The position numbers were made by a program, and so were the translations under genes. 64,000 nt of DNA from positions 1,860,001-1,924,000 of the forward strand of contig NZ_JADOTZ010000001.1 in assembly GCF_015751895.1 (NCBI RefSeq), written 5' to 3'. Positions 8,247 through 12,610 of this stretch are shown in pieces (the first letter of the stretch is position 1; each line of letters begins with the position of its first letter). The notes below the pieces were generated by a model. It saw nothing but the letters and a program-made list of their open reading frames with translations. It was not told the DNA's origin and searched no databases. The DNA comes from Zhihengliuella flava. Lineage in GTDB: Bacteria > Actinomycetota > Actinomycetes > Actinomycetales > Micrococcaceae.

Positions 8247-8795
8247 GTGGCCGCCACCGTGACGGACGACGTGCTCGAGGAAGCTCAGCGCGGCGCACCG
8301 GAGGCGTTGACCGCTATCTACCAGAGCCTTGCCGCTCCGGTTCACGGGTACCTCGCCGCCAAGGGCGTTGAGGACGCCGAGGGTGCCGCCCAGGAGGTGT
8401 TTCTCACGGTGTTTGCGCGACTCCATGAAGTCTCCGGTGGGATGGCTGGATTACGCACCTTCACCTTTTCCGTCGCGCACGCGCGCATGGTGGACGCGAC
8501 CCGCGCCCGGGCGCGCGGCCCACGCCTGACGGAGTACGACGCCGCCACGGACCCTCGCCAGGCCCCGTCACCTCAAGATGAGGTCATGAATCAGCTGGCG
8601 GCCTCGGATCTCATGCCGGCGCTGGATACGCTGGGCGAGGATCAGCGCGAGTGCATCGTCCTCCGGATCGTCGTCGGCATGAGCCTTGAGGAAACGGCGC
8701 ACCTCATGGGCAAGTCCGTCGGTTCGATCAAGCAGCTGCAGCGGCGAGGACTGAAGGCGCTCAAGACGGCGTTTGAGGAGGTGAAGGGCCAGTGA
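8247..8795 (+). CDS. ECF-type RNA polymerase sigma factor
   Basis: The 182-residue protein has only sigma regions 2 and 4. Region 2 spans about 15-85 (AAQEVFLTVFARLHEV then FTFSVAHARMVDATRARAR), and region 4 about 120-175, with a helix-turn-helix (GMSLEETAHLMGKSVGSIKQLQRRGLKAL). It should direct RNA polymerase to a stress or envelope regulon. The GTG start at 8247 has GAGGAG upstream. Its stop overlaps the start of the next gene, which encodes a membrane protein; this is the standard sigma/anti-sigma arrangement. It is unrelated in role to the second sigma factor at 19791. Confidence 0.88.
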   Translation: MAATVTDDVLEEAQRGAPEALTAIYQSLAAPVHGYLAAKGVEDAEGAAQEVFLTVFARLHEVSGGMAGLRTFTFSVAHARMVDATRARARGPRLTEYDAATDPRQAPSPQDEVMNQLAASDLMPALDTLGEDQRECIVLRIVVGMSLEETAHLMGKSVGSIKQLQRRGLKALKTAFEEVKGQ

Positions 8796-9598
8796 ATCCC
8801 CAGCGGTCACAGAGTATTCGCGAGCTCCTCGAGGATGTTGACATCGTCGATGCCGACTTCGAATCCGCCCTCGGCGCGCTCGCCGCGGCAGCCGACCAGC
8901 CGGCCCCGACGCCGCGCGGTGCGCTCGCCGAGGTCCTCGCCGGGCGAATGAGCCCGCACGACGCCGTCGCCGATCAGTCCTCGACCTCCACCGTCACCGG
9001 CGGAACGGCCAGCGACGTCGTCGCCCTCGCCGAGCACCGGGCCCGCAAGCGCCGCAATCGTGGCATCACGGGCGGGGCGACCGTGATCGCCTTGGCCGCA
9101 GCGGCTTCCCTCGCCGGGGTCGCGGCGGCAGACGACGTCCCGCGCGCCTCCGCACCGGTGGTCAGCGTGCAGGTGGACGCCACCGAAGACGTGGACCCCG
9201 TCGAGCGGCCGGACCTCGAGGTCACCGCCCCACCCGCAGCGGACGTCGAGCGGACCGTCGAGCGCGCACCGATCAATGCCGCGGCACCGGAGCCCTCCCG
9301 GGCGGCGGAAACTCCACCGGCCGTCGAAGAGACGCCCGAGGCCCCGCCGACGGCGCCGCCGACCGCCCCGGCGGAGGTCTCGACGCCGCAGCCACGCCCT
9401 GCACAGGATCGAAAGGCGGTGCTCATCAATCCGGAGGCCCCCGGAAAGTCCAAGCCGGCCAAGGTCACGGTCAAGCCGGGCCTGCGCGGCGAGAAGGGTC
9501 ATCAGAAGGACCGCCCCGCCTGGGCCGGTCAGCCCGGCAAGCCGCCGCACGCGGGGTCCGGCGGCCGCGGGCCTTCCCACCGCTCGGCCGATCGGTAA
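8792..9598 (+). CDS. Single-pass membrane protein, putative anti-sigma factor
   Basis: The GTG start overlaps the sigma-factor stop by 4 bases, so the two are translationally coupled. The 268-residue protein has a cytoplasmic N-terminal part of about 90 residues (IRELLEDVDIVDADFESAL), one membrane segment near 92-112 after a basic RKRRNRG stretch, and a long Pro/Ala/Glu- then Lys/Gly-rich external tail. No zinc-binding HxxxCxxC anti-sigma motif is visible. Anti-sigma function is inferred from position and topology; RsdA-like anti-sigma factors are the closest conceptual match, but no firm domain is recognised. Confidence 0.6.
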   Translation: MNPQRSQSIRELLEDVDIVDADFESALGALAAAADQPAPTPRGALAEVLAGRMSPHDAVADQSSTSTVTGGTASDVVALAEHRARKRRNRGITGGATVIALAAAASLAGVAAADDVPRASAPVVSVQVDATEDVDPVERPDLEVTAPPAADVERTVERAPINAAAPEPSRAAETPPAVEETPEAPPTAPPTAPAEVSTPQPRPAQDRKAVLINPEAPGKSKPAKVTVKPGLRGEKGHQKDRPAWAGQPGKPPHAGSGGRGPSHRSADR

Positions 9599-9649: not shown

Positions 9650-11104
9650 CTAGTCGGTGGACGTGCCCAGCTGATCCAGAATCGAGTCCGCCTCGGTGGT
9701 GACCGTGGCCGCTTCGACGAGGTCTGAGGCCTCGTCCTGCAGCAGCGTGCTCCACGAGTTGACGATGTCCTCGGCAGCCCCCGAATCGATGAGCTCGGAC
9801 TGCAGCCGCTCCTGCGCCTCGCTGTAGAGTTCCGCGAACCCCTCGTCCGCGAGGAATCGCTCGACCAGCGGGTTGGAGCCGCCTCCGGGGCCGCCGGCAC
9901 CGCCGGCATCAGGGGTCGTGCCCGTGCCGTCCCCGGGCGCGGGCCTCTCACCCTCGGCGGGCGGCTCGAACCCTTCGGGCATTTCGCCCTCGGCAGGGGG
10001 CTCGAACCCTTCGGGCATTTCGCCGTCGGCAAGTGGTTCGAAGCCCTCGGGCATCTCTCCGTCGGCCGGGAATTGGCCGTCTTCGCCGGCCTCCCCGCCC
10101 GGGAACTGACCTCGCTCGCCCCCACCCATGCCACCCATGGTGCCGAAGGACAGGTTCATATCCCAGGTGAGGACCGTCATCTGGCCCGTCTCCTCGTCGT
10201 AGCGCAGGAACGAGTTATTGCCCGGGCCGTCGATGTCATCGGTGTTGCCCACGAGATCCTGCAGCGCCAGGTAGGTGGCGAACGAGTCGACGTCGAGGTA
10301 CTGCTCGAGGTGTGCCGCGAAGTCCTCGTCGCTGGAGTTGTTCACGAAGTCGAGGAACTCGATCAGCGGCGTCATGTCCTCCTCGCCATCCTTGACGCTG
10401 AAGGCCTCCGCGTAGTCCTCGGCGGCGTCGCCCCGGTAGCTGTAGTCCCCGCTGGACTCCGCCTCGTAAGTGATGCCCTCGCTCGTGAAGTAGGACTCGT
10501 TCCAGAGCGGGTCATCCGGCGCATCGATGACGAGGCGCAGTTGCGCCTCCGCCCCGTTAACGCTGAATCGGGTGGCGGCGGCCTCTTCCGTCTCGAGGCC
10601 GGCGGCGCCGATGAGTTCCAGGGCCACGGCTTCGTTCAGGCTGGTTTCCGTGTTGTTCTGCCGCACCACGTAGTCGGCGCGCCCGGCATGCTGTTGCCCG
10701 TCGACGTACTTGTCCAGCCGAATGAGCCAGGGAAGATCCGTGGGGTCAGAATCGGCGCTGGTGCCGCGCAGCGAGGAGTTTCCCTTAAGCCGCAGGCCGA
10801 CGTTTTCATAGACCGTGCCGTCGATCGTCACCGTCGCCTCGACCCACTCCTTGCTGCCGTCGGCCGCGTAGGCATCAAGCGCGGCGTCGAGTTGTTCTTG
10901 ATCGGCCTCCACACTGACCTCGTGGACGTCCGTGCTGTTAAAGAACGACGACGTCTGGCTGGCCTCGCTCGCGCTGTCCGCGGCGCTGGTCTCGATCTGC
11001 AAGGCGTCGGCGAGGGAGCCGGAGCAACTGGACAGCAACAGGGAGGCGGCGACGCCCGCCGTGATGGCGGTGGCGAGGCGGCGGCGTGGGCGTGGGGTCG
11101 TCAT
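9650..11104 (-). CDS. CotH kinase family lipoprotein
   Basis: The 484-residue protein starts with a lipoprotein signal (AASLLLSSCSG, lipobox Cys about residue 28), so it should sit outside the membrane. CotH hallmarks are visible: RLKGNSSLRG, the LIRLDKYVDGQQ/ADYVVRQNN segment, NEAVALELIGAAGLET, a VIDAPDDP strand, and TVLTWDMNLSFG, equivalent to the catalytic D-bearing strand. CotH proteins are atypical kinases first known from spore coats. Between the kinase core and the C-terminal helices lies an acidic insert with three copies of a 12-residue repeat (GEMPEGFEPPAE-like). Its start overlaps the stop of the upstream VTC gene, making it the last gene of a three-gene operon. Activity on proteins here is inferred from family. 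Confidence 0.88.
   Translation of the reverse strand: MTTPRPRRRLATAITAGVAASLLLSSCSGSLADALQIETSAADSASEASQTSSFFNSTDVHEVSVEADQEQLDAALDAYAADGSKEWVEATVTIDGTVYENVGLRLKGNSSLRGTSADSDPTDLPWLIRLDKYVDGQQHAGRADYVVRQNNTETSLNEAVALELIGAAGLETEEAAATRFSVNGAEAQLRLVIDAPDDPLWNESYFTSEGITYEAESSGDYSYRGDAAEDYAEAFSVKDGEEDMTPLIEFLDFVNNSSDEDFAAHLEQYLDVDSFATYLALQDLVGNTDDIDGPGNNSFLRYDEETGQMTVLTWDMNLSFGTMGGMGGGERGQFPGGEAGEDGQFPADGEMPEGFEPLADGEMPEGFEPPAEGEMPEGFEPPAEGERPAPGDGTGTTPDAGGAGGPGGGSNPLVERFLADEGFAELYSEAQERLQSELIDSGAAEDIVNSWSTLLQDEASDLVEAATVTTEADSILDQLGTSTD
9965..10072 (-). repeat. Three 36-bp tandem repeats inside the CotH gene
   Basis: Three in-register copies of a 36-bp unit encode GEMPEGFEPPAE-like peptides. The copies begin near 9965, 10001 and 10037, with the third diverged. 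Unit length is a multiple of three, so copy-number change would keep the frame. Confidence 0.85.
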
Positions 11105-11892
11105 CGTGGGGCTCCTGTGGGGGTGAGGCGGCGTACGCGGTGTTGGGTCAGGGTGCGGTGCCAGCGGTTGGCGGGCAGGTGTGGATGGAGGACGGCGAGG
11201 CCCGTGGCGAACTTGGAGATGCGGACGGGGCGAATGCCGGCTCTCCAGAGCAGCCGGTCCAACGGGCCCGCTGCGCCGGCGGACTTGGTTTCCAGAATGA
11301 CTTGGTCGCTCAACGTGAACGCGTGGTCAGGATCGGCGGTGTCCTCCCAGATCAGCCCGGTGTCCACGGTGATGCGGCCGGCACCCTCCGGAAGCAGGAC
11401 GCTCTGGCGGCGGTAGCGCGAGGTGAGCACGGGATGTAGCTGCTCCAAGCCCTCCGGGCAGTGTCCCCAGGCGGCGTCGAGTCGCTCGGCGAGGTAGCGC
11501 CGGCCGGTAGGGGTCAGGGTCTGCGCGTGGCCGGGCGGGTGGGCGATCCGTTCTTTGATGGTCTGTCCGCGCCCTCCGCGCGTCTTGAGTTCCAGGAAGC
11601 TGCTTCCCGTGTCCTCGTAGGTGCGCGTGCGCACCTTGAAGCGACGCCGCCTCCGGTGCGCGGAGAGGTGGTAGCTGGCCAGGTCTTCGGTGTCGAAGTA
11701 GACGGAGTGGTAGCCGAAGTCCCGCCGGCCAGCGATCTCGAGGACGCGGCTGCCATCCGGCAGGTCCGCGAGGACCCGCTCGGCGGTGCCGGTGCCGAGG
11801 ATGTACTTGCGGTCCGTGCGGTGCTGGAGCGCGGCGGCGGCGTTCATGGTCTCCAGGTCGACGCTCGGTAGGGAGGCGACGGGGGAGATCAT
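11101..11892 (-). CDS. VTC-domain polyphosphate polymerase family protein
   Basis: The 263-residue protein matches the VTC tunnel domain throughout: RTDRKYIL near the N terminus, SVYFDTEDLASYHLSAH, the basic strand RRRRRFKVRTRTY, FLELKTRGG, ITVDTGLIWED, and the late strand VILETKS. In yeast Vtc4 these Arg/Lys/Glu residues line a tunnel that makes polyphosphate from ATP. No membrane segment is seen, so the protein is probably cytoplasmic or bound to the DUF4956 partner. Its ATG overlaps the DUF4956 stop and its stop overlaps the CotH start, indicating a tightly coupled operon. Polymerase activity in this bacterial branch is inferred. Confidence 0.85.
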   Translation of the reverse strand: MISPVASLPSVDLETMNAAAALQHRTDRKYILGTGTAERVLADLPDGSRVLEIAGRRDFGYHSVYFDTEDLASYHLSAHRRRRRFKVRTRTYEDTGSSFLELKTRGGRGQTIKERIAHPPGHAQTLTPTGRRYLAERLDAAWGHCPEGLEQLHPVLTSRYRRQSVLLPEGAGRITVDTGLIWEDTADPDHAFTLSDQVILETKSAGAAGPLDRLLWRAGIRPVRISKFATGLAVLHPHLPANRWHRTLTQHRVRRLTPTGAPR

Positions 11893-12488
11893 GCGTGGCT
11901 CCGTTCCGCCGGCAGCACCTCGTGATTCGCTGTCGTCAGGGACCGTTCCGGGACGGAGAAGCGGACGTTGACCACCGTCTTGTCATTGATCAGATCCAGC
12001 TGCTGCGTCACGGCGGAGTGGACGCGCCCGCCCAGCAGGGCTTCGAGGCGTGCGTGCAGCTCGGCCTCGTCGGCGATTGCGCGGTCCAGAATGACGCTCT
12101 GCTGGCGGTAGGTGGGCAGCACGCGGGCGTGATCGGCCACCGCCATGACCGTCAGGATGAGCCCAACGAGCGCGATGGTCAGCCAGAGCGGTGTCTGATT
12201 GAGGCCGGCAATCAGGCCGATGGCCAGAGCCGAGAAGTAGTAGGCGATCTCATGCTGCTCGAGCTCGTTGGAGCGCAAGCGGATGATGGACAGGACACCG
12301 AACAGGCCCATGCCGACGCCGAGGCCGATGCTGGAACCGCTGAGCGTGGCCGCCACACCGAAGACACCGATGTTGATGCCCATATAGGAGACGGCGAGGT
12401 CGCGGCGGCGGTGGCGGCGCAGGTAGAGGCCGAAGGTCAGCAACAGGATGGCCAGCAGGTTGACGCCGGCGGCTAGCAACAAATTCAC
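11889..12488 (-). CDS. DUF4956 membrane protein
   Basis: The 199-residue protein has four predicted membrane helices in its first 125 residues, including the family-typical GINIGVFGVAATLSGS and FGVLSIIRLRSNELEQHEIAYYFSALAIGL, then a soluble C-terminal domain of about 75 residues. DUF4956 proteins have no established biochemical function but co-occur with VTC-domain and CotH proteins. The start is GTG, preceded by AGGAAG at a good distance. It is first in the minus-strand operon DUF4956-VTC-CotH, so its promoter should lie in 12490-12600. Confidence 0.85.
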   Translation of the reverse strand: MNLLLAAGVNLLAILLLTFGLYLRRHRRRDLAVSYMGINIGVFGVAATLSGSSIGLGVGMGLFGVLSIIRLRSNELEQHEIAYYFSALAIGLIAGLNQTPLWLTIALVGLILTVMAVADHARVLPTYRQQSVILDRAIADEAELHARLEALLGGRVHSAVTQQLDLINDKTVVNVRFSVPERSLTTANHEVLPAERSHA

Positions 12489-12610
12489 GGGGATTCTTCC
12501 TCAGGGGGATGGGGACGAATCCACTCTGCTGACCGAAGCTAAGCGATTGCTTTGAGAGGACGTTGATGGGGCTTTGAGGTTCTGTTCAGTTTCTGTGTGC
12601 GGTGAACAGA

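Follow-up and report, generated by a model that had tools for sequence, protein, structure and literature searches.

The window analyzed here comprises 64,000 nucleotides of Zhihengliuella flava, a member of the Micrococcaceae whose genome is a single contig of 2.90 Mb (NZ_JADOTZ010000001.1, assembly GCF_015751895.1), and corresponds to positions 1860001-1924000 of that contig. It carries a compact operon coding for a DUF4956 membrane protein, a VTC protein and a CotH-fold protein, in which the conserved unit is the DUF4956-VTC pair and not the trio. From the computed gene order, folds, active-site conservation, pair conservation, partner exchange and shared promoter repeats, we tentatively propose, with slightly less than an even chance of being right, that the pair constitutes a membrane-bound VTC-type polyphosphate synthase-translocase whose two parts are separate bacterial proteins, and that an exported lipoprotein acts on the outer side. 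The three genes are the following:

12488-11889, minus strand: DUF4956 membrane protein gene, 199 amino acids (aa), GTG start; Pfam family PF16316, 196.8 bits (cut-off 30.6), 2.8e-58
11892-11101, minus strand: VTC protein gene, 263 aa, ATG start; Pfam 92.2 bits (cut-off 23), 4.6e-26
11104-9650, minus strand: gene for a CotH-fold protein, apparently a lipoprotein, 484 aa, ATG start; Pfam 104.8 bits (cut-off 23.8), 8.5e-30

Both gene junctions are overlaps of exactly 4 bases, as seen in the open reading frames (ORFs) and by inspection of the sequence, and the overlapping three-gene arrangement given in a preliminary description of this DNA was borne out by the ORF coordinates and the Pfam matches. 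Each of the three proteins has one match in its own genome, none was matched by an NCBIfam model at E 0.01, and the nearest named relatives found were Arthrobacter and Glutamicibacter records, whose DUF4956 proteins are 59-67% identical.

Neighbourhoods of relatives were fetched and all their six-frame ORFs were searched with iterated profiles grown from the window proteins; the partner counts rest on these profiles, with Pfam checks on examples. VTC was adjacent in 39 of the 41 loci found through DUF4956 (the exceptions being L031 and L093), and DUF4956 was adjacent in 20/20 loci found through VTC. Since the pair is thus kept in 59/61 fetched relatives, the operon arrangement is not due to chance. 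One stretch enters twice, L086 being the same as L028, and was still counted among the 62 loci (window included) and in the DUF4956 (A1) and CotH (A3) alignments. In the main group DUF4956 comes before VTC; L096-L105, L114 and L115 have the reverse order, VTC-DUF4956. Moreover, among 12 plasmid records outside the genome sets, fetched via DUF4956 or VTC matches and spanning Pseudomonadota, Deinococcota, Bacillota, Bacteroidota and Actinomycetota, the full-length pair lies side by side in 10, and in 14 control genomes DUF4956 and VTC matched the same three, CotH a different set of three; Corynebacterium glutamicum is a control genome matched by all three families. Of the recurring trio that had been described, the recurrence in other bacteria stood; the trio as a conserved unit did not, the third gene being replaced or missing in many loci.

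The pair is patchily distributed: VTC was present in 20/198 genomes sampled across the phylum, DUF4956 in 33/118 relatives (the own genome counted in both) and, within the genus, DUF4956 in 2 of 5 genomes, which indicates an accessory trait. One genome carries two divergent DUF4956-VTC pairs back to back (L063, 6573-9756). A DUF4956 relative is also encoded in four phage-labelled, unannotated faecal records (MT836222.1, MT837266.1, MT838813.1 and MT835527.1); in one of them it is 52% identical over 97% of the query, and the records could be host DNA.

The VTC protein was modelled as a single triphosphate-tunnel domain (mean predicted local distance difference test, pLDDT, 94.5) with no long helices able to span the membrane, and Pfam finds only VTC in it (residues 25-236 of 263), with neither an SPX nor a transmembrane domain. 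In Foldseek the 13 best matches of the model were VTC chains, the top one being yeast Vtc4 (3g3r_B, 6.0e-13, TMq 0.59), followed by E. coli YgiF (1.1e-9) and other tunnel enzymes. A profile of 59 bacterial VTC rows (alignment A2, 59 of 61 rows, L086 and L099 left out) reached yeast Vtc4 at 2.7e-21; below E 0.1 it matched VTC proteins only. All 12 compared Vtc4 residues (K200, R264, R266, E279, K281, K294, R361, R373, D377, E426, K428 and K458, with numbering read off the printed alignment with full-length Vtc4, 8i6v_E) are identical in the window protein, and each position is kept in at least 58 of the 59 rows. In yeast Vtc4, the triple change R264A/R266A/E426N is reported to be impairing (PMC9911596). 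The other compared positions are taken to be functional Vtc4 residues as well. The polyphosphate-polymerase fold suggested earlier is thus upheld by a Vtc4-like tunnel model with intact Vtc4 residues. In bacteria the well-studied polyphosphate route is that of the PPK enzymes inside the cell, and PPK1 and PPK2 are both present in this genome; therefore, the pair is not needed for ordinary polyphosphate, and a second polymerase would have to serve another purpose.

The DUF4956 protein, already assumed to be a membrane partner and supported as such by Pfam and by a predicted five-helix model, carries a C-terminal beta-alpha-beta-beta domain after its five helices (pLDDT 89.3). Two arginines close to the end of helix 3, R70 and R72, are present in 61/61 rows of alignment A1 (61 of 63 rows, L094 and L099 left out), which also displays an Arg-rich loop after helix 1; by the positive-inside rule, these arginines would face the cytoplasm. 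In yeast VTC, synthesis by Vtc4 is described as coupled to a membrane channel, with basic residues lining the channel or its entrance (PMC9911596). The bacterial pair resembles the eukaryotic VTC complex (yeast Vtc1/Vtc3/Vtc4) in its tunnel-domain fold and catalytic residues, and in the association of a catalytic domain with a membrane part bearing conserved basic residues. In contrast, the window VTC protein lacks the SPX domain and fused transmembrane region, it is partnered at the membrane by DUF4956, which showed no relation to the VTC membrane parts, and the location would be the bacterial plasma membrane rather than the vacuole. The idea that DUF4956 might be MgtC-like found no support in the Foldseek, VIA-align or profile lists and was set aside.

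Among the 62 loci, CotH was found in 24 and a Cthe_2159-type beta-helix protein in 23, two loci having both and 17 neither, three of these 17 (L094, L095 and L097) being short or near a contig end. The Cthe_2159 identity was confirmed by Pfam on L064, L091 and L072, and in a Paenibacillus plasmid the VTC, DUF4956 and Cthe_2159-type genes are consecutive. In Aminobacter and in Shinella, where Pfam matched the protein, a phytase-like gene lies downstream of the pair; in Nitratireductor the pair is followed by an inorganic phosphate transporter gene, confirmed by Pfam, and then by a phytase-like gene. On a tree of the pair (58 rows of joined DUF4956 and VTC, built by a quick method and with long branches that meet, as at L115), a minimum of 13 changes is required among the four partner states, against an average of 29 with shuffled labels, the second pair of L063 having been labelled as partnerless by hand; the well-supported branches force at least 6 changes for CotH. 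The window falls within a clade of seven CotH loci whose tree neighbours carry Cthe_2159, and another clade unites 11 closely related Micrococcaceae-type loci where the pair lacks an exported partner and no adjacent glycan operon was recognised.

A loose screen, in which at least one "segment" (L079) is a low-complexity stretch, found a lipobox in 14/24 CotH and 19/24 Cthe_2159 proteins, and a lipobox or other hydrophobic segment in 23/24 and 24/24, respectively. As far as this screen goes, the third slot is therefore filled by an extracytoplasmic protein attached to a core of cytoplasm and membrane, and, given how many loci have another gene or none in this slot, the basic function of the pair cannot depend on CotH. 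Regarding other neighbours, a protein cluster near the pair in L064, L066, L069, L072, L079, L092 and L115 includes a phosphodiester glycosidase (NAGPA) in its tested member (L115), and in Deinococcus sp. QL22 (L118) the VTC-DUF4956 pair is near genes for a HAD acid phosphatase and a phosphate/phosphonate ATP-binding cassette (ABC) transporter.

In the window, the third slot is occupied by the CotH-fold protein, with the following features:

11024-11038, minus strand: lipobox LLSSC, residues 23-27, from the sequence and a regular-expression screen rather than a dedicated signal-peptide program
10238-10240, minus strand: D289, which aligns with Bacillus CotH D228
10160-10162, minus strand: D315, which aligns with Bacillus CotH D251
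9940-10066, minus strand: 36-nt tandem repeats coding for the acidic PEGFEP-type linker (Tandem Repeats Finder, period 36, 3.5 copies)

The lipobox forms the end of a signal-like stretch that is visible in the sequence. A CotH profile of 17 rows (alignment A3, 17 of 24 rows; L096, L099, L100, L101, L109, L110 and L113, being divergent, long or partial, were left out) finds Bacillus CotH (5jd9) at 8.2e-22. D289 and D315 are invariant in 17/17 rows, their mapping being based on the printed alignment and on an equal spacing of 23 residues in the chain, and D228 and D251 are catalytic, since their changes inactivate the Bacillus CotH kinase (PMC7821199). The exported kinase-like lipoprotein anticipated in the preliminary description is, accordingly, an apparently exported CotH fold with a predicted lipobox and both catalytic aspartates. 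The likeness to the Bacillus spore-coat kinase extends to the fold and these two residues; in contrast, the window protein is an apparent lipoprotein with a long acidic Gly/Pro linker, and no sporulation context was seen. This linker follows the second aspartate, is Gly/Pro-rich and, in the window, acidic, and consists of 22% Asp+Glu and 6% Ser+Thr; with so little Ser+Thr it is an unlikely target of Ser/Thr phosphorylation, an idea that was rejected. Residue 214 (10463-10465) is Lys in 15/17 rows and Glu in the window and in its sister-genome relative (L070).

Upstream of DUF4956, beyond the coordinates given in the preliminary description, we identified a candidate site for an OmpR-type regulator:

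12550-12578, minus strand: three direct repeats spaced by 11 nt, CTCAAAG / ATCAACG / CTCAAAG

The repeat has a p below 0.01 (100 shuffles), and its strict pattern, allowing up to 2 mismatches, occurs once in the genome. Across 41 of 63 upstream regions, some of them from close relatives, the best triple at lag 11 scored 13.83 vs 11.15 in shuffles (z = 11.2), several of these best triples being not of the CTCAT type or located further upstream; the other lags from 8 to 15 reached at most z 3.4, although lags 9, 12 and 15 also exceeded the shuffles (z 3.2-3.4). Genes for an OmpR-type regulator and a histidine kinase, identified by loose similarity clusters, lie within 6.5 kb of the pair in 21/62 loci. 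The own genome has an unlinked ortholog of this pair-neighbouring regulator (67% identity, the next paralogue being at 41%). It lies at G000:C1:2488226-2488894, next to the genes for a histidine kinase and for a membrane-anchored, poly-Asp-tailed protein, and the promoter of the latter bears a triple repeat of the same kind. The small poly-Asp protein beside the OmpR-type two-component pair (G000:C1:2487609-2487635; L139, 4691-5149) has similar D-rich counterparts in L081, L084 and L085, next to the two-component genes located near the DUF4956-VTC pair.

A looser pattern matched exactly three sites in the own genome, namely the trio operon, the poly-Asp gene and a glycan-export operon (glycosyltransferases, an ABC exporter and two APH-type proteins), matches at sites viewed during its design being by construction. 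It matched five sites in the 61 relative loci, all upstream of DUF4956, at 75-82 bases from the ORF start in four and about 70 from the aligned start in L085, and 72 sites in 44 of 118 genomes, compared with 3 when the pattern was reversed; DUF4956 follows the site in 6 of the 72. Twenty further regions (21 sites) were fetched. Within the genus, a site precedes the gene for an acidic anchored surface protein beside two-component genes in 5/5 genomes and a glycosyltransferase operon in 4/5, one of the three sites of the fifth genome not having been fetched. DUF4956 is missing from three of the five, so that the regulon would be the older element and the trio an accessory part of it. Elsewhere, further sites precede apparently unrelated genes, and in L184, L185, L189 and L190 the repeat lies about 80 bases before genes for similar-looking proteins of 386-419 aa, with no Pfam match in the two tested (L184 and L189). 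Together, these promoter patterns suggest that an OmpR-type two-component system probably induces the operon along with the poly-Asp surface protein and the glycan-export operon, with 12550-12578 as the candidate binding site of this response regulator.

A scan for sigma-70 promoters found nothing. An ECF (extracytoplasmic function)-type sigma factor gene and an overlapping Pro-rich ORF run towards the operon on the plus strand (window 8247-9598), and sigma/anti-sigma genes are also near the DUF4956-VTC pair in Aminobacter and Nitratireductor plasmids, for which reason the ECF sigma factor and the ORF next to it were considered as regulators of the operon.

In the mechanism that we favour, the soluble VTC enzyme would dock on the cytoplasmic face of DUF4956 and build a phosphate chain from nucleotide, and the chain would exit through or along DUF4956, past the invariant arginines. 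Outside, the lipoprotein, here CotH, may use, bind or modify something at the surface, and induction of the operon with the poly-Asp surface protein and the glycan-export operon would lead to a more anionic, cation-binding surface. We prefer this reading because the pair is conserved, VTC has a Vtc4-like fold and active site, the DUF4956 arginines are invariant and the third slot is export-like, and further because PPK1 and PPK2 are present, the Nitratireductor neighbours are phosphate-related and the promoter repeats are shared. A more specific version, a possibility albeit a doubtful one, holds that DUF4956 is the translocator of a prokaryotic VTC complex and that the secreted polyphosphate is handled at the surface by an interchangeable lipoprotein (kinase-fold CotH, Cthe_2159 beta-helix or phytase-like), in a genus "polyanion" regulon that would be under two-component control alongside the poly-aspartate surface protein and the exported glycan. 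In its boldest form, exported polyphosphate would be the phosphate donor of an extracellular kinase, where ATP is scarce.

Several observations weigh against a synthase-translocase. No activity data were found for a bacterial member, and the VTC fold family includes phosphohydrolases, as the YgiF match illustrates. For DUF4956, Foldseek gave no match at E 0.001 or better (best E 0.075), the best VIA-align rows were scattered helical or small-domain matches at Z 6.3 and below (the top row having a root-mean-square deviation of 4.1 over 78 aligned), and a profile search of solved structures returned chance-level rows only; with no convincing solved-structure match, the DUF4956 "channel" is therefore an analogy. 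Furthermore, DUF4956 has no VTC neighbour in L031, L093 and a Hymenobacter locus (L126), and in a Pseudoalteromonas plasmid (L123, 6622-7531) it is preceded only by a short VTC-like stretch (a frame of 107 aa), perhaps a remnant; the 17 loci with neither exported partner count in the same direction. As to regulation, the window operon has no two-component genes next to it, the repeats fall short of significance in the nearest other trio loci (L025-L029, p ~0.22-0.39) and are weaker in the sister genome (L070, p ~0.03), and the looser pattern was devised after viewing the window site, the own-genome two-component site and the relatives L073, L078, L080 and L085.

The main rival, which we consider unlikely, is that the operon assists surface-glycan production from the cytoplasm: VTC would make or handle an oligophosphate or phosphate polymer, held by DUF4956 at the inner face, and this would feed or regulate a polysaccharide synthase or exporter, nothing would be translocated, and CotH would regulate or modify the glycan machinery outside. 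A pel cluster was sought in the own genome via DUF3492, which we take to be a marker of PelF, and none was found, no other pel family having been searched; for want of this marker, the operon is no longer read as a simple "Pel accessory" in this organism. A link to glycans is favoured by the glycosyltransferases next to the trio in Planococcus and Pseudobutyrivibrio and by the promoter pattern that the window operon has in common with a glycosyltransferase/ABC-exporter operon. The cotH-PPP-DUF4956 trio has been published as a set of accessory genes in Gram-positive Pel clusters: in streptococci, clostridia and bifidobacteria it is contiguous with the pel genes, and a regulatory role has been proposed for CotH (PMC7112168). 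These genes share with the window operon the grouping of the three families; the differences are the lack of DUF3492 in this genome and the absence of a visible DUF4832 gene from the operon. Clostridium perfringens NELoc-2 likewise combines VTC-domain genes, CotH and a glycosyltransferase in one cluster, together with small membrane proteins of DUF4956 size annotated as tubulin/FtsZ, which we infer to be DUF4956 proteins; it differs in having two VTC genes and a larger cluster (PMC2879425). The glycan explanation is opposed by the 11 Micrococcaceae-type loci described above, by the missing DUF3492 and by the phosphate-transport and phytase-like neighbours in Rhizobiales, which fit phosphate handling better.

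Quite unlikely, in our judgement, is a sensor or signalling module in which VTC hydrolyses or cyclises a nucleotide or triphosphate, the small cytoplasmic domain of DUF4956 regulates, and no polymer is made. The fold family does include triphosphatases and adenylyl cyclases, and DUF4956 has a small C-terminal alpha/beta domain; however, all profile matches below E 0.1 were VTC proteins and 12/12 Vtc4 residues are kept, which would still leave room for another activity. That CotH is an independent passenger, sharing only the promoter and surface location with a pair that has its own job, is improbable: the third gene does change repeatedly on the pair tree and CotH occurs without the pair in Bacillus subtilis, but the slot is filled repeatedly by the same few families, mostly in the position immediately next to the pair, and this holds for Actinomycetota as well as for Deinococcus, Planococcus, Pseudobutyrivibrio and Paenibacillus plasmids.

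The literature, which was covered in part, turned up no functional study of the DUF4956-VTC-CotH trio. As a gene association the trio is already known (PMC7112168); what is new here is the anatomy of a pair plus an exchangeable partner, the agreement with Vtc4 at the level of residues, and a candidate regulon under two-component control.

If the synthase-translocase reading is true, it would provide a surface route for phosphate polymers in a genome already equipped with PPK1 and PPK2, with relevance to biofilm matrices, cation binding and envelope stress, and it would give a function to DUF4956 and a place outside spores to CotH-fold proteins. In this context, the proposed regulon opens the questions of a function for DUF4956 and of a CotH role outside spores to direct testing.

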